Positions 39,953 to 49,100 of a stretch of 64,000 nt of DNA are shown in pieces. The DNA is from Chaetoceros tenuissimus. Lineage: Eukaryota > Bacillariophyta > Thalassiosirophyceae > Chaetocerotales > Chaetocerotaceae. The position numbers were made by a program, and so were the translations under genes. The notes beneath the pieces are model-generated. The model was given only the letters and a program-made list of their open reading frames with translations. It did no database searches and was not told where the DNA came from. The stretch spans positions 25,934-89,933 of the forward strand of contig BLLK01000014.1 of the NCBI GenBank assembly GCA_021927905.1. The letters are read 5' to 3'. Position 1 is the stretch's first letter. Each line of letters opens with the position of its first letter.

Positions 39953-40240
39953 ATGCTCTCCTTCTCCAAACTTCTACTTCTCGCTGCTCTACTTGTCTCG
40001 ACAGGGGCATTCACGGTACCAGCAAGGTCGAATGCTCTTCAGATTAATTCGCACACATGCTACAGCTTGCTGCAAATGGCATCGAACAAGGAGGAGGACC
40101 TTGAGAAAACCATTCAAATTATCATGGACGCAAAGACACAAGTAAAAGAGGTTCAGAAGAAAGTCATTGAGAGTCAGAAGAAGAAGTCAAAACGGGAGAA
40201 AGTGAAAAAGTTCTTGAAGAAAATTATTGGAAAAAAGTAA
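39953..40240 (+). CDS. small basic plastid-targeted protein
   Basis: Single-exon 95-residue protein. The first 20 residues form a clean signal peptide (KLLLLAALLVSTGAFTVPARS) ending in a TGA/FTVP cleavage motif, the plastid-import signature of diatoms. After a short transit region the mature part (about 45-95) is one strongly charged helix, MASNKEEDLEKTIQIIMDAK, ending in a Lys-rich KKKSKREKVKKFLKKIIGKK. Such a chain could bind nucleic acid or membranes. No family is recognised. The good leader and codon structure argue for a real gene despite its size. Confidence 0.65.
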   Translation: MLSFSKLLLLAALLVSTGAFTVPARSNALQINSHTCYSLLQMASNKEEDLEKTIQIIMDAKTQVKEVQKKVIESQKKKSKREKVKKFLKKIIGKK

Positions 40241-40479: not shown

Positions 40480-42136
40480 CTATTCTTGTGTTGGCTTTTG
40501 TTTCATTCTTGAGGCCTTTACTCTCTGTAACTTGTCACTGATTCGTCTCAAGCCACTTGAGACAATGGATCTAAAGCCCCTCCTTTCCTTCTCGTACTCT
40601 ACAACCTGGCGTTCCAGATCCTTGATTTTATCTTCAGATGTAAAATCGTCCTCATTCTCTACATTGAGTTGAACATCCATTAGATCCTTGTATGATTTAC
40701 CATCAATCTTTCCTCTGTCTGTATTTTGAAGGGTTTCCTCAAGAACCTTGATCTTTTCACTTAACTCTCTTTCCCTCTTCATTGAGTATACCTTTTCTTC
40801 CAATATATTATTTCGTTCCTTGACAAGCTTATACTTTTCAGTTGTCCATTTTGCTTCCATCTCTTTGAAGTACTGAACTTGTCTTTGTAAAGCTGTATTA
40901 CTTCCACTCAGTTGCTCATTCTCACGCTCCAAGGAAAATAGAGCATCTTTCCATTTCTCTTCAGATTCTTCAAGCATTGCTCGTAATTCCTTGACTTCTA
41001 ATCTTTCTTGTTCTAAGCTTGCTTGTAAATCATTGATGATTCCTTCAAGAGAATCACATCTTTGTTTCCACATTTTGACTTCTTCCTCTTTTTCTCGCAA
41101 CTTTTTGGATTGATTGGCTAATTCTTGTCTAAGCTGATCAGATTCAGATTTGTACTTTTCAATGTCATTTTGTAGAATCCTATTTTGTGCTTCTGCTTTT
41201 TCAAGATCCTCAATGCGTTGAAGAAGAATAGATTTCTCAGCTTCTGACATTTTGGTGAGACTAGACTGAGCTGCTACCTCTTCTTTCATGGCAGATACCT
41301 CCATCTTGTACTTCTCCAATTGGTCATTCAGCTCCTTGGCCTGTTTCTTGTACATGGTAACTTCATCCTTTAATCGCTTTGAGTTTTCTAATGCTATTTC
41401 TAATTCCTCTTTTTGAGCTATTAGAGCCACTTGATTATCTCCTGTAGCATTAGATTTTGAAGACAAAGCTCTCATCGTTTCTATTTTGACTTCTAATTCA
41501 CTCTTTACGCTGATAAGCTCGTCCTCGCGCTTCTTTGCTTCAGATTTTAAATCTTCAACTTCCTTCTCGAGTGATTTGGTCTCTTCAACCTTTTTTTCTA
41601 GCTCATCAATACGCGCCAGTAACTTTGGATCTCCCGAGTTGTCCGAAGTTTTATCACTCAAATCAATTATTTCTCGTTTCATATCTTCTACTTTCACCTC
41701 TTGTATGCTTAAATCATTTTTCATATTCGTAATGACAACATCTTTTGATTCAATCTCATTTCTAAGAGTATCAATTTCATCATTTAAAGTCTCAATCTGA
41801 AACAAAGCACCTTCATCATATTGAGTTTCAGCAGCTGATAACTTCGCCTTGAGCTCCTTAATATCGTTGTCTCTCGATACAATGCCCATAATCTGCCTAG
41901 TGATTTCAGCCTTTAGCTGCTCAATGTCTTCTTCATATTCATCCATTTTCTCCTCGTAGAGCTTGGCATTTGATTCCATGGTATCTTGTACGATTTCAAA
42001 AGCAGCTGATAATTCATTTATTTCTTCGAGTAGTGCTTCAGTGTCATCATTATTGGTACTTGTTTCTGCACTTGACAACTTAGAAGTAGATTTTGTTATC
42101 CGTGTCGAGGTTCCACCTCTTGATCTATTTTTACCA
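40480..42136 (-). pseudogene. body of a secreted or plastid coiled-coil protein gene, split from its 5' end by a transposon
   Basis: Continuous coding body, frame open from the transposon edge at 42136 to the TGA region at 40480. It begins YGKNRSRGGTSTRITK and is then almost wholly alpha-helical coiled coil (heptads such as LKAEITRQIMGIVSRDNDIKELKAKL; LARIDELEKKVEETKSLEKEVEDLK). It ends in a basic tail (SSGLRRISDKLQRVKASRMKQK). The missing start codon and first 23 codons lie at 45700-45630, beyond a 3490-bp PIF/Harbinger element. The 1657 bases here plus 71 there equal 576 codons exactly, so the original frame was intact. As it stands the first in-frame ATG is at 41979, giving an N-truncated 499-residue product without a leader. 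Function of the coiled-coil is unknown. Confidence 0.8.
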
Positions 42137-42373
42137 TAAGGCCTTGTCCAAACACATTGAAAAAAAAAAAAAAAAAAGTAGTGATGATGACGTCGACAAG
42201 GACGTTTATTTTTTTCAACGCACCTGTCCAAACAACTTTCGAAAAGAAAAAAAAAGGTTATGTCAATTTTAGCTAGATTATTATAATACTCTTCATTTTC
42301 ACTCGGCTGTCCTACGCTTCTTTCATATGACCTCTCCACCACTCACGCGAGCCGTCTTCTCCACCAAATACAT

Positions 42374-43738
42374 TCATTCTTCACTTTCATGTTCCTGTGC
42401 ACGTAAGGTATCCAACTGTTCCTCTAGCTCAATGAGTGCGTCAGCTTGTGCCAGAATCTGTGCTTCAATTTGATCAGTCCATACCTTCTGTTCTTCAATT
42501 TCTTCAGCAGGGATATGCTCATCTCTCTGCATCTTTCTAAGTTCCTTCATCGCTTCAATCTTCCGACCTTTTAAGTCGAGAAGAGTAGATTCACTTGCAC
42601 GAATCTCACTCTTGAGAACAGATGCTTCCATGACGTAAGTTGAACGTGCCAATCTCTTCATCAACTCTTTATCTTCCTTACTCACTTCAATTGAGATCTT
42701 TCTTTTGGTTCCAGAAGAGTTGACAGCAGAAGGAATATTGTTCTCACTCAAAGCGATGCTTGGATCGATTTGCTGCATCACTGTTGGGAGAAATCCCAAG
42801 CTGTCCGCATACTCCCAAAGATATAGACAAGCGCTTGGCTCACCATTGAGGAAACAATGCTTATCTGAACCGACCTCCTCACCATCAACCATATTTCCAT
42901 CACCATTCCCACTGAGATCATGGCGGGCCTTCACTCTATTGACACATGATTGCAAGTGGATGAATTTACTTTTTGCTTTTTGCGCATCAATTTCGATATC
43001 TGCACATGACAGGTCTAGCACTTGATCAAAATCATCATGCAAATACCCGTATGGTAAGCTGTTTGGTTGGAATTCTGGATTTTTGAACATTTCAGCAGCA
43101 TCAATCCAGAAAGAGACTGGAGCAACCTCGGTGGAGTTTCTTGCGTCAATGCTCTCTCGAGTAAGTGCAGCGTATGACTGCTGGAATTTTCTACGCATCT
43201 CTGGAGTGTCCAGAATGCAGTGAATCAGACGAAGGTAGGGCTCTTGTCCTCTCCAAAAGTTTGCATGGTTCCTATCATTGGGGGCAGTTTCCTCTGCAGC
43301 ACGGACAGCACGAAGTGTTCTTTCAAATGAAAGGACATTATCAGTAAGAAAAGTGATGTCAGCCGGATCGTCGATGGGATTATCAGTCAACCACGCAAGT
43401 AAACTAGATTTGTCTTTAACACCTGTTCTGGTTTTAATGTTCAAAATACATTTGCGACGTTTCATCTCACGCACGAGGTGTGTCTTGGTCGGCATGTAGT
43501 CGGTTTTTTTACTGCTACCAACAGTCTTGTTCCAAAGCGTTTCGTCGTTAAGATCTACAACAACTTTACCAGTCGGAGATCTGATTCCCACTGCCATAGC
43601 CAGCAGAGTCTTGTTGCTATGATCATTGACCTTGTAGTGTTCAGTGCAATCATGATACTGTTTACAACTTTTGCACTGAACAAAAACAGTAAGTTCAGAA
43701 TCAGATGGAGAAACAGATGATGTTGGAGAAGAGTTCAT
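42374..43738 (-). CDS. accessory protein (ORF1) of the PIF/Harbinger element
   Basis: Frame open from 43801, with the first ATG at 43738 (MNSSPTSSVS), giving 454 residues. An AG acceptor just before 43801 leaves room for an upstream exon. Near the N-terminus FVQCKSCKQYHDCTEHYK has four Cys/His in a zinc-ribbon-like cluster. Residues in the middle (YMPTKTHLVREMKRRK, KSSLLAWLTDNPI, FWRGQEPYLRLIHCILD, VSFWIDAAEMFKNPEF) are helical. The C-terminal 110 residues form a Leu/Glu-rich coiled coil ending LEEQLDTLRAQEHESEE. Harbinger elements normally carry a Myb/SANT-like second protein that helps the transposase enter the nucleus and bind DNA. This protein holds that genomic place, but I cannot see a clear Myb signature. 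Confidence 0.7.
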   Translation of the reverse strand: MNSSPTSSVSPSDSELTVFVQCKSCKQYHDCTEHYKVNDHSNKTLLAMAVGIRSPTGKVVVDLNDETLWNKTVGSSKKTDYMPTKTHLVREMKRRKCILNIKTRTGVKDKSSLLAWLTDNPIDDPADITFLTDNVLSFERTLRAVRAAEETAPNDRNHANFWRGQEPYLRLIHCILDTPEMRRKFQQSYAALTRESIDARNSTEVAPVSFWIDAAEMFKNPEFQPNSLPYGYLHDDFDQVLDLSCADIEIDAQKAKSKFIHLQSCVNRVKARHDLSGNGDGNMVDGEEVGSDKHCFLNGEPSACLYLWEYADSLGFLPTVMQQIDPSIALSENNIPSAVNSSGTKRKISIEVSKEDKELMKRLARSTYVMEASVLKSEIRASESTLLDLKGRKIEAMKELRKMQRDEHIPAEEIEEQKVWTDQIEAQILAQADALIELEEQLDTLRAQEHESEE

Positions 43739-44041
43739 TTTGCGTAATTTCTTGAAAAATGAGCTTCCATTCGGAGTAGATTTTTGAATTTCAGAGATCA
43801 CCTAGAGATAGACTGACGTAGAATACATTTCATTTTGGAGGGAAATCTCGGTTGGCATCTTCTGATTGGTTCAAAGCCGAAGAAAGCGTTCTTTCTTGAC
43901 GAAGAATGAAGAAAGCGTTCCTTCCTGACTAAGAATATGAAGAATGCAATTCCTCGAATTGCTGACGAAGCAACTCCAGTGGTCAAAGCCAAACACAAGA
44001 TGTGCGCCTACAATTCCATAAAATAATAAGAAGAGAGAAAA
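43739..44041. promoter_or_regulatory. bidirectional promoter region inside the Harbinger element
   Basis: About 300 bp between the divergent accessory ORF and transposase. It contains the direct repeat GAAAGCGTTC.TTC.TGAC.AAGAAT.A (43882-43911 and 43912-43940). The only ORF (66 codons, minus) is probably an upstream exon or chance. Confidence 0.4.
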
Positions 44042-45361
44042 ATGACAATTTATTCTATAGCTGCTACATATTTGAAAACAGTTTCTTCATATTCTGTGCA
44101 TAGAAAATTATGCATCGAACGAAAAGCCAGTGTAGTTGGTACAAGACTCGGTTCTGTCACCATTCCTCGCACAAGAAGAACAATGCCTTCTATTTACCGA
44201 GAAATGGGTGAGTTATATTTTCGACGAGCATATCGTATGTCTTACACTTCCTTCCGACTTCTATTTCGAGAGATAAAACAAGTCTTGTATGAGAAACTAT
44301 ACAAGACCGAAGGTAGGGAAGCGCCAAATGGTAGAATACCTCTTGATAGCCGACTTGGAATCGGTGTGAGATACTTTGCTGGAGGAGATCCGTATGATAT
44401 ATCTATATCATATGGAGTCTCTCATTCTTCTGTTTTTGATACTGTCGATGCTGTCGTCGATGCTATTAACAGTCACGATAGGTTCAAAATCATGTTTCCT
44501 ACCGATCATGATGAACAGCGTCGAATTGCTGCTGAGTTCAAAACAAAGTCAAGGGTTGGCTTTTCCAATTGTTGTGGTGCAATTGACGGTATGTTGGTCT
44601 GGATACACAAACCATCTAAGAAGGAATGTGAAGAAGCAAAGGTAGACGAACGAAAATGGTTTTGTTCCAGGAAGAATAAATACGGCCTAAATCTACAAGC
44701 AATCTGTGATTCCCGAAAGCGATTCTTAGATTTATCCATTCTTTTTGGTGGATCTTCCAGTGATCTCATTGCATTTGAATCTTCTCCAATCCGCCAAAAG
44801 CTTGAGCAGCCAGGTTTCTTAGCAGATGGTCTCTGTCTATTTGGAGACAATGCATACGTCAACACAAAATTCATGGCTACACCATACGTGAAATCTCATA
44901 GAGGTTGGTCTGATCTTCATGATAACTACAACTTTTACCATTCACAGTTGCGTATTAATATTGAATGTGCATTCGGTATTCTCTGTCAGCGATGGGGATT
45001 CTTACGAAAACCTGCTCCAAAGAAATACAGCATCAAGAAGATCATGGCGTTCGTATCCTGTCTCTGTCGCTTGCATAACTTTCTCATTGATCAGAATCCG
45101 ATGTATGGCTCTAGCATGCTTGCTCCAACACCACGAGATGCATATCATTTAAGTTGCGAAGGTCAAGTAGATGTGTCAGAGAGACGTGATGGATATCCAT
45201 TGGTACCAAATGATCTAAGTGGAGGAGGTGAGCATTTTGATGATGATACTCAGAGAACGAGAAGATCTACTGTGCCACGCGGCTTGGAAAATATGCTTCC
45301 ACGTGAACAATTGATGATCCAAGTTAGTGATAGTGGGTTTGTTAGACCATCAGTAACATAG
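44042..45361 (+). CDS. PIF/Harbinger DDE transposase (DDE_Tnp_4)
   Basis: 439 residues, ATG start, no introns. The DDE nuclease fold is recognisable. The first Asp lies in CCGAIDGMLVWI, the second in LFGDNAYVNTKFMATPY and the Glu in INIECAFGILCQRWGFLRKP. The YGLNLQAICDSRKRFLD strand lies between them and the RLHNFLID motif follows. An N-terminal helix-turn-helix-like segment (SRLGIGVRYFAGGDPYDISISYGVSHSSVFDTVDAVVDAI) matches the family's usual DNA-binding region. All three catalytic residues are present. The C-terminal tail (about 390-439) is polar and not conserved in the family. It cuts and pastes elements with TWA target sites, presumably this one. Confidence 0.93.
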   Translation: MTIYSIAATYLKTVSSYSVHRKLCIERKASVVGTRLGSVTIPRTRRTMPSIYREMGELYFRRAYRMSYTSFRLLFREIKQVLYEKLYKTEGREAPNGRIPLDSRLGIGVRYFAGGDPYDISISYGVSHSSVFDTVDAVVDAINSHDRFKIMFPTDHDEQRRIAAEFKTKSRVGFSNCCGAIDGMLVWIHKPSKKECEEAKVDERKWFCSRKNKYGLNLQAICDSRKRFLDLSILFGGSSSDLIAFESSPIRQKLEQPGFLADGLCLFGDNAYVNTKFMATPYVKSHRGWSDLHDNYNFYHSQLRINIECAFGILCQRWGFLRKPAPKKYSIKKIMAFVSCLCRLHNFLIDQNPMYGSSMLAPTPRDAYHLSCEGQVDVSERRDGYPLVPNDLSGGGEHFDDDTQRTRRSTVPRGLENMLPREQLMIQVSDSGFVRPSVT

Positions 45362-45481
45362 AGTAGATGATATGGAAAGAGTGATAGTTGTAACATAAAC
45401 ATGCAGTTCTATGGTGCAGTCTTCTCTCTTCTTACTACCCTCCGTCCGCAGAAACGAGGATGGCCGATCGTCCTATCTACA

Positions 45482-45537
45482 TTTTTTTTTTTTCCGATGC
45501 CAGCCTCGGTGGGGAGCTGGCATCGCAAAAAAAAAAA
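45482..45537. repeat. long hairpin at the 3' side of the transposase
   Basis: A 12-T tract (45482-45493) and an 11-A tract (45527-45537) bracket the perfect 10-bp inverted repeat CGATGCCAGC / GCTGGCATCG (45495-45504, 45516-45525) with an 11-base loop. As DNA or RNA this makes a stem of about 21-22 pairs with one C-C mismatch. It lies 92 bp inside the right end of the transposon. It could end transcription, shape the transposition complex or be the remnant of a smaller inserted element. Confidence 0.7.
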
Positions 45538-45629
45538 GTAAAAAAAACATGTCATGATCAGAAAATGAATGGGTTATGAGGTGTGATTTTTTACTTTTTT
45601 TTTTTTTTTTGCTGTGTTTGGACAAGGCC

Positions 45630-45700
45630 TAATGCACTACGAATCCGTCACTGCAAGTCAGCAGAGAATTCAGAACAAATAAAGATAGGCTTATTCTCAT
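45630..45700 (-). pseudogene. detached 5' coding fragment (signal peptide) of the split coiled-coil gene
   Basis: Reading on the minus strand from the ATG at 45700: 23 codons encode a leader (MRISLSLFVLNSLLTCSDGF...). It is a hydrophobic signal peptide with a G/F junction resembling the diatom plastid motif. Two further bases form codon 24 with the base at 42136 (TA+T, Tyr) once the transposon and one TAA copy are removed. After the last host base the reading runs into the transposon end. The promoter of the gene should lie at 45701-46117. Confidence 0.75.
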
Positions 45701-46117
45701 TCTTCGCGATAAAGTTGCTGCAATTGGATTTTGCTCTATTCACTTTTCAGTACAGGGCTGTATCTTAAGCTCTATCTTGGTTGGATATGAGTTCAATAAC
45801 AAATGAATTCTGCCTCAAAAAGATTGTGAAGGCTTATTGTGTATTCTTCTGTTGGAATGTACTAGTAACTATGTAAGTACTATGTAAGTACTATGAAGTA
45901 CTGGTATCATGGTATCATCGACGATGATGATGGGTTGAAGCCGAAGAGAAGGATCTTCTCAGAAGTATGGATATACCCGCTATTTACCTTCTTCACTCCC
46001 TTTCATTTTTTAATTAGGGTTAAAAGTCTTCCTCATATCTCATATTCCAATCAAGAAATAGAACTATTTGTATATATTATGTTCCCCATTTTCATGAAAT
46101 TTTACAAAATTATCTCA
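45701..46117. other. spacer with 11-bp tandem repeat; presumed promoter of the split gene
   Basis: 417 bp between the detached start codon and the end of the SET-MBD gene (same strand). At 45868-45899 ACTATGTAAGT is repeated twice, followed by a 10-bp variant. ATCATGGTATCATCGACGATGATGAT follows at about 45905-45930. No convincing ORF. Confidence 0.45.
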
Positions 46118-49100
46118 TTACCTAGATTTTCCAAAGAGTTTTAGTGCCTTTTCATCGTCACCACCAGCCTTTTCCAAACAAACGATGTACCTTCTAATCT
46201 CTGGTTTTGATCTAAGCTTTTTTCCACCCTTGGTAAACCAATACCAATCAAGATGTGAAGTTGATGTTGGTCCTTGCTCACGATTGTGAATATGAATAAC
46301 CCACCCCTCCGGTAACTCATCACCCCCAGGTTTTTCTTCCCAGAATGTAAGATTGTTTCTATTGCGCTCAACATTTGGGTGGACATTTGGTATCCACCCT
46401 GATGTCTGTCTCCCTCCTTCTCTATCGAAAATCTTTTGCGCATCCGCCGAGAATCTCTTTGTTCGTTTGATACGAGAAGTTTTATTGATCGAGTCCTTGA
46501 AGCGATGATCCTTTTGCTGGACATATTTTTCTTTGTCATAAGGCTCCTCTATTCTAGTCTTCACCATTGCCTCTGCAGCTTCTAAATTTACTCCAAGTTG
46601 TTGACATAGACTTTGTAGACTGTAGTACTTTTGGAATTTGAGGTATCCGCATGCAACAGCGTGTATCACTCTCACATTTTGCAGCATGTACCAGTCAGTA
46701 TCGACCTTGACCTCATTGTCAATCTTTTTACAGCGAATTCGCTTTGCATCCTTTTCCTCGAGAGTAATAGCCTGACCCCCATGTTTATCAGGTCCTTTTT
46801 GCAAGTAGTCACTTATAACTTTATTGTCAGAAGTGTCGAAGCCAAGCATTATCTTGGAAACGTCTGACAGCTCTTCGTTTGGTATAATATGTCTTGCAGC
46901 TAAAAGCGCTAATTCATATATATTTGCCACGGCTGTTGCTTCATCAGAAGTTCCAATGTGTACTTTTAGAACTACATCCCTCACAAGTCTTGAAAACAAC
47001 TTTCTTGTAACTTTGGTGTACATACATGTATCGAGAGGGTGTGGGAGATTACATGCAATTGTTGGCAAAGATAGAGCGAAAATGACTTCCTCTAAGATCT
47101 CTTCGTATGCAATGTTTGTTAGGATTTCATTGTCATCAATTCTTCGAAGTAAAACTGGTGGAATCTTCATTTTACTTGCAATTTTTCTAATATCTGATTC
47201 TGCGAGTAGTTCATTATCCGAAAATCGATTTCGTTTCTTCTTGATGAAGTCGAGATGCTCTATGATACACGTTGATATCCAGTGCATTCTGAGTCTAGAC
47301 CTCACTTGTCTCCGGGATGCATTCTGAATTGATGAACTCCTGAAACATTCATCAGTAATACTGTTTACGCCCAAAACAGTTTTCTCCAGAGATATTACCA
47401 AGACGCAAAGACCATGCAGTCCTGTTTGAGAATAAATGTGTTCAAGAGTAACAATTCGTGCAGCTTGATTCCTCCTTACTCGAAAGATTTCATTGCTATC
47501 ATCGGGAACATTTGAAAGACCATATCCTTTTCTTTCTCTAACTGTTTCGTAATGATCACCATAATTGACAAGAAGCTCGACTTCGGCTCCAACCTTCATA
47601 GGTGACTTTATATGCGCAAAGTAGTAAATTCCGTCAATGTCTTGTAATGGAGTCACATTATGTTCTAGACTTTTGTCATGGCCAACTTCATTCACATGCA
47701 TTGGGAGATTTTCCCGAGCTCTAAGATGTGTTTCACCGGTCTCTTCATCAGTAATGTCTAAAATGAGATCTCCATTCCTAGTCTCTTCTGTTTCATCTTC
47801 TTCATCATATCCATATGACCACCCTGCAGGTTCGAAGTCGAAGAGAAAGTTTTTTACTTCGAAGTGATGATTACCCTTCAAGTCGGAAACAAAGAATGGT
47901 CCATAAGAACCAAGATTGATAATTCCATTACCTTCATCATATGAAGAAAAGGTAAGCGAATCGTCCCTAATATAGTTCTTATTACGAAAAGCTTTTTCAT
48001 CTTCATGTATTTCATTCGGCCCAATTGTGACATTACAAACTTTGCCACAGGGCATGTTGGCAACCAAAGAACATCTTGTCAATGGAAAGGTACTGTAGTC
48101 TTTGTCCTGGATTCCTACTCGAATTCTATCAAGTCTCAAAAAAGCTCCATTTCCAGAGTTGGGAATACGAGATTTACCAACATATGCAGTGAAGTCAAAA
48201 AGTTGATCTGATGTTTTTTTAGCCACAAAAAATGAAATAAAATGTACAATAGTCCAAATAATGCTTACCTTTTTCCTCGTTCAAGATCGAAAATGTGAGA
48301 ATTGGGTGGTGTTCGCTTGTCAAACACTTTCGGAAATCTAGCAATTCCATTTCTTTCAATTCTGATGGATCTCTCGAGAAATTCCTTCCACCATTCTCTC
48401 CTTTACGACCAATTTTGGGAATTCTTAAACGCCGTTTTGGGGAGAAAGGAATTGGTGCAATCTTATCTTGCAATCTTGAAACAGAGCTTGATCTGGCAGG
48501 ATCTGACAATTGCCCTTCTCCATTCGATTCATAGCTTTTTCTCAGACAAGGTTCAACACTTGTATGGGAATCTTGCACTGATAATTCTTTTTCTGAAGAT
48601 AGTTTTAAAGTGTCAGTGATTTGCGAATCCTTCACTCCGAGGAATATTGCTTTCATAGTCAACATGCTATTCTGGTCTTTGCCATTTCTAATATTCTGCT
48701 GATTGGAAATCTTCTTGAGAGTCATTAGAGATTCCTTGACCTGAGAAGGGACATCTTCACAAACTCTAGTAACATGATTCCAAAGGATGTAAAAACTTTT
48801 CTCTTGTAAGCATACACTCTTTGAGCCACAATGTAGACATGTGAGGCACCCATGCCCAATGTGCTTTTGATGATCTTTATCAGAATCTTTGATACTATCG
48901 AGGAAAAATTGCTGGAAAGTGTAATATTCCAAATCTGTCAACTTGACCTTTTCTGAATCCAAGACTGGACTTTTTCTTTCGTTTGAGTATTCCCTCCACG
49001 CCCTTTTCTTCATCTCTTCTAATGTCCCTATTGCATTGGTGAAATGACGAACTTCTGTCAGATCTTCAGATTTATGAGGCGATTCAACGAATACTTTTCC

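Follow-up and report, generated by a model that had tools for sequence, protein, structure and literature searches.

The window, the whole stretch of 64,000 nucleotides of Chaetoceros tenuissimus DNA analysed here, corresponds to C9:25934-89933 of the genome that was searched (41,027,912 bases in 68 contigs). Its minus strand carries a gene for a coiled-coil protein in two pieces, lying on either side of a PIF/Harbinger-type element of 3,490 bp (42140-45629). The leader, codons 1-23 with the ATG at 45700, occupies 45633-45700, the coiled-coil body, which begins with the remaining bases of codon 24 and runs through the stop codon, occupies 40480-42136, and the ends of the element are bordered by a target-site duplication of TAA, its left copy at 42137-42139 and its right copy at 45630-45632. 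When the element and one TAA are removed, the minus-strand pieces 45700-45630 (71 nt) and 42136-40480 (1,657 nt) join into a frame of 1,728 nt from ATG to stop, which comprises 575 codons and the stop, has no internal stop and has its codon 24 (Tyr) built from both sides of the junction. An earlier note on this DNA had claimed that a transposon splits the gene around codon 24, that the ATG at 45700 opens a 71-base leader in the strand and frame of the body, and that Tyr-24 forms across the junction with no stop left after excision; the joined frame and its translation bear out all of this, the figure of 71 bases (45630-45700) counting the TAA duplication beside the element and the stretch 45633-45700 being the leader without it. 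It is also correct that the body has no start of its own, the first ATG in the body being Met-77 (41979) and the 23-residue leader supplying the ATG of the joined frame. In the genome the split gene occurs a single time, as two pieces on C9 (2 matches) and in the split form only, and the right flank of the element (45633-48600) likewise has a single occurrence. Beyond the other end of the split gene and facing it lies a 95-aa ORF on the plus strand (39953-40240), which stops 239 bases short of the gene; its leader, MLSFSKLLLLAALLVSTGAFTVPA, comes close to the classical plastid motif of diatoms and is followed by a short helical body rich in Lys.

Both ends of the element read GGCCTTGTCCAAACACA, with 17 bases identical in inverted order, and two proteins are encoded between them. 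The transposase ORF (44042-45361, plus strand, 439 aa) matches DDE_Tnp_4 of Pfam with an E value of 1.2e-26 and 93.7 bits (cut-off 24.8), and has the motifs GAIDG, GDNAY and ECAFG at residues 179, 268 and 308, which we take to be the carriers of the DDE residues. It scores 23.8 bits with the NCBIfam IS5 model, under the cut-off of 140, and has no match in PDB. The second ORF (42374-43801, minus strand, 475 aa) belongs to no recognised family; it gave no Pfam match at E ≤ 10, no PDB match, no NCBIfam match above cut-off and no relatives in viral_contigs, and its structure model has a mean pLDDT of 41, too poor for a structure search. Its relatives within the genome are 79% (a frame on C20), 39% and 36% identical to it. 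The DDE_Tnp_4 match, the inverted repeats and the 3-bp duplication together uphold the assignment to Harbinger made in the earlier note.

The 16-base end of the element has 27 matches in the genome when up to one mismatch is allowed, one of them being mismatched. Twenty of the 27 constitute 10 two-ended copies, and the remaining seven are one-ended, were aligned only and stand outside the duplication count; one of the seven, on C38, belongs to a nearly complete copy with an altered left end, and another, at C34:996176 (L026), has no alignment to the element. By length, the two-ended copies comprise three of 3,490 bp (in the window, on C36 and on C54) and seven shorter ones, of which three measure 1,598 bp and the others 1,237, 1,236, 1,161 and 881 bp. 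Among the long copies none of the 3,490 positions differs, though short-read polishing could have erased a few differences; they have different flanks and keep both element proteins complete. On C58, one copy (L025, 4504-6970) retains the whole transposase, but its second ORF is shortened, and the sequence beside its end differs. All ten two-ended copies (window; L011-L019) are flanked by a 3-bp duplication of the form TNA, which is TWA in three, including the TAA of the window copy, and TSA in seven. Because three full-length copies are identical at different sites and every two-ended copy has its TNA duplication, the element looks, from these sequences, to have been recently mobile in this lineage.

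The family resembles PIF/Harbinger elements and their Tourist-like derivatives in its DDE_Tnp_4 transposase, inverted ends, 3-bp duplication and two ORFs, and the Tourist-like derivatives further in having internally deleted copies with the same ends (here 1,598, 1,237, 1,236 and 1,161 bp). However, plant Tourist elements duplicate TWA, as a passage of PMC12595863 describes, and the duplication here is more broadly TNA. The second ORF of PIF/Harbinger elements has a Myb/SANT-like domain, whereas no Myb domain was detectable in the second ORF here with Pfam.

With the joined 575-aa protein as query, a search of about 5.8 billion proteins, in which scoring covered the 7,994 candidates with the most words in common, yielded two matches at E ≤ 0.001, P0001 and P0002. 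Each is 588 aa long, covers the full query and reads MRISLSLFVLNSLLTCSDGFVVHYGK uninterrupted over the predicted junction. Over the 575 positions, P0001 differs from the window protein at 28 and P0002 at 33; between the two relatives there are 14 differences in 588 positions. Residues 1-26, the insertion point included, are invariant among the three proteins; the variable positions amount to 11 in residues 27-56 and 25 in residues 57-575. Since the two relatives are continuous and identical to the window protein over residues 1-26, leader and body are best read as one gene of which an empty site exists. Thus the empty allele that the earlier note wanted looked for in relatives is present at the protein level, and as for homologues lacking the leader, both matches carry it fused to the body exactly at the predicted junction. 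Their source contigs are 5,148 and 7,706 bases at longest, and we take both to be genomic, so that leader and body should adjoin in DNA. Because the protein database was clustered at 90% identity, with P0001 representing 9 sequences, there may be unbroken alleles closer to the window gene.

A profile search built from the three sequences (again 7,994 candidates scored) returned the same two proteins and nothing further, and viral_contigs contained no relatives of the coiled-coil protein. Pfam and NCBIfam gave coiled-coil matches only, all below their cut-offs; PF19220 and PF24161 are found in the precomputed annotation of P0001. Both relatives start 13 residues ahead of Met-1 of the window protein (MQRATLPRRNLAR), where the window has no in-frame ATG. 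The window protein has 22 unique substitutions and the relatives have 3 and 8, in an unrooted three-way comparison in which relaxed constraint on the split gene is inseparable from the window lineage being the outlier. Positions 45701-45740 of the window hold a stretch that resembles the 13-residue extension of the relatives but is shorter and without an ATG.

The earlier note had described the leader as a hydrophobic signal peptide with a plastid-like junction, and this stands only in part. Diatom plastid preproteins have a bipartite presequence, in which Phe occupies +1 and the transit peptide abounds in hydroxylated residues (PMC4329603, in the passages available). The leader of the coiled-coil protein is alike in its hydrophobic core (mean 1.89, residues 5-16), in the Phe at residue 20 and in what follows, residues 21-55 having 13 Ser/Thr, 6 Lys/Arg and 3 Asp/Glu, that is, being rich in hydroxylated residues and net positive. 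The full ASAFAP motif is, however, absent, the residues around the Phe, CSDGFVV, agreeing with it at Phe only. Import of the protein into the plastid is put forward as plausible and, in our judgement, rather probable. From length and heptad-rich composition, we would guess at a protein that is structural or serves as a scaffold, either in the plastid or at it.

When the flanks of the 10 two-ended copies were joined, a frame of >300 codons ran over the junction in four cases, and in two of these the junction is clearly inside a protein: that of the window and that of a 1,598-bp copy on C44 (L016, G000:C44:963400-966950, element at 953-2550). Of the other two junctions, one lies upstream of the first Met and one at codon 6 of a frame that is truncated where the locus ends and that we take from its appearance to be patatin-like. 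The protein interrupted by the C44 copy, in codon 184, is 318 aa long; it matches the ubiquitin-conjugating domain UQ_con (E = 6.7e-28) and has a hydrophobic leader with ASFAF, of plastid type. Searched against the genome, this E2 protein found its own two halves at 99% and 10 further matches at no more than 36% identity. Among its best 120 of 473 relatives, P0003 and P0004 are unbroken; the former differs at a single one of the 318 residues, the latter at 19. A place of the E2 in plastid import is likely and no more, given the names of its relatives: among the matches listed, P0095 is named 'Symbiotic ubiquitin conjugating E2' and several others 'ubiquitin-conjugating enzyme E2 W'. An apicoplast E2 is essential in Toxoplasma, according to a portion of PMC3681736; if the diatom E2 were essential as well, the strain should either have an allele free of the element or remove the element by splicing.

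In the window, the leader read into the element meets a stop after 23 aa. With the element present, the frame of the body stays open as far back as a GTG at 42342, which lies 203 nt within the element, but Met-77 is the first ATG reading into the body. The position of the insertion thus predicts that this allele has lost the targeted protein, and, as the earlier note had held, the insertion would remove both the targeting and the promoter of the coiled-coil protein. The element might supply a promoter, so that the body is expressed from Met-77 as an untargeted coiled-coil protein. The second element ORF does run in the same direction as the body, stopping about 240 bp short of the junction, and the frame from Met-77 encodes 499 aa; seven out-of-frame ATGs (42326 to 41979) nevertheless precede it. 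Such expression is unlikely, and would modify the explanation by gene disruption and not replace it. A good deal less likely still is that the element is spliced from the RNA as an intron and a nearly normal protein continues to be made. There are poly-T tracts ahead of AG at the element ends, and one GT-AG pair would retain residues 1-20 and rejoin at 42079. This pair is one of 22 frame-keeping GT-AG pairs, out of 60 frame-keeping pairs formed by 12 donors (GT or GC) and 92 AG acceptors and counted without splice-site scoring; many such pairs are expected by chance from these numbers, and at the coiled-coil site the route that uses the GT and AG of the inverted repeats runs into a stop directly after residue 23.

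Two further readings concern the joining of the pieces itself. Three identical long copies of the element could confuse an assembly, and one of them could have been misplaced here; against this, the site has exact element ends, a matching 3-bp duplication and a unique right flank, and an assembly artefact is highly improbable. That leader and body are unrelated and in frame by chance has the distance separating them as its sole point, and is refuted by P0001 and P0002, which encode one protein with the exact junction, leaving this reading with practically no probability.

A related question is whether the family might be on its way to becoming an introner. Introners, which are intron-making DNA transposons, as described in part of PMC9860276, likewise have inverted ends, a short duplication and insertions in coding sequence, and those of Aureococcus add 12 bp (PMC9860276). 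Splicing at the GT and AG of the inverted ends would here leave 9 element bases and the 3-bp duplication, also 12 nt, and would thus preserve the reading frame at any site whose codons permit it. At the C44 E2 site this route is in-frame, adding four residues to give 322 aa, so that, if the idea were true, the E2 copy could be tolerated and the coiled-coil copy would have landed where a stop arises. Unlike introners, however, the long copies here carry their own transposase, the two-ended copies number about ten, and the splice route fails at the site in the window. The main text of PMC9860276 contains none of the words 'diatom', 'Chaetoceros' and 'Harbinger'. We regard such a transition towards an introner as very improbable.

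The evidence argues strongly that insertion of a recently mobile PIF/Harbinger-type element split a one-exon coiled-coil gene with an N-terminal signal peptide, and we hold this reading with high confidence. The element, of the cut-and-paste kind and mobile in this lineage until recently, would have entered the gene at codons 23-24, where the coding strand reads TTA, doubling that triplet. On this allele the native promoter would now drive just the 23-residue leader peptide, and the body would yield at most an untargeted product from Met-77, by way of element-driven transcripts. To judge from the relatives, the ancestral start of the gene may have been further upstream, and a small deletion or a different start at 45701-45740 may have come before or alongside the insertion. 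For C. tenuissimus NIES-3715, PMC8613185 describes an assembly collapsed with HaploMerger2 into a single haploid sequence, gives a heterozygosity of 1.56% and states that no huge insertion or inversion separates the haploid sequences. If the assembly studied here is that of NIES-3715, an intact second allele would therefore not show in it, and the other haplotype may be intact.

This kind of mutation is ordinary and well known, and its mechanism is textbook. A keyword search found no paper pairing 'Chaetoceros tenuissimus' with 'transposon insertion', and the word Harbinger is absent from the main text of the genome paper (PMC8613185). The locus is a clean example of gene breakage by a DNA transposon that was mobile until recently, for which both unbroken relatives and identical sister copies of the element are at hand, and the family has a further copy inside the sole plastid-type E2 gene of its kind found in the genome. 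It would serve as a ready marker for continued Harbinger movement in culture and for intact alleles hidden by haploid-merged assemblies.
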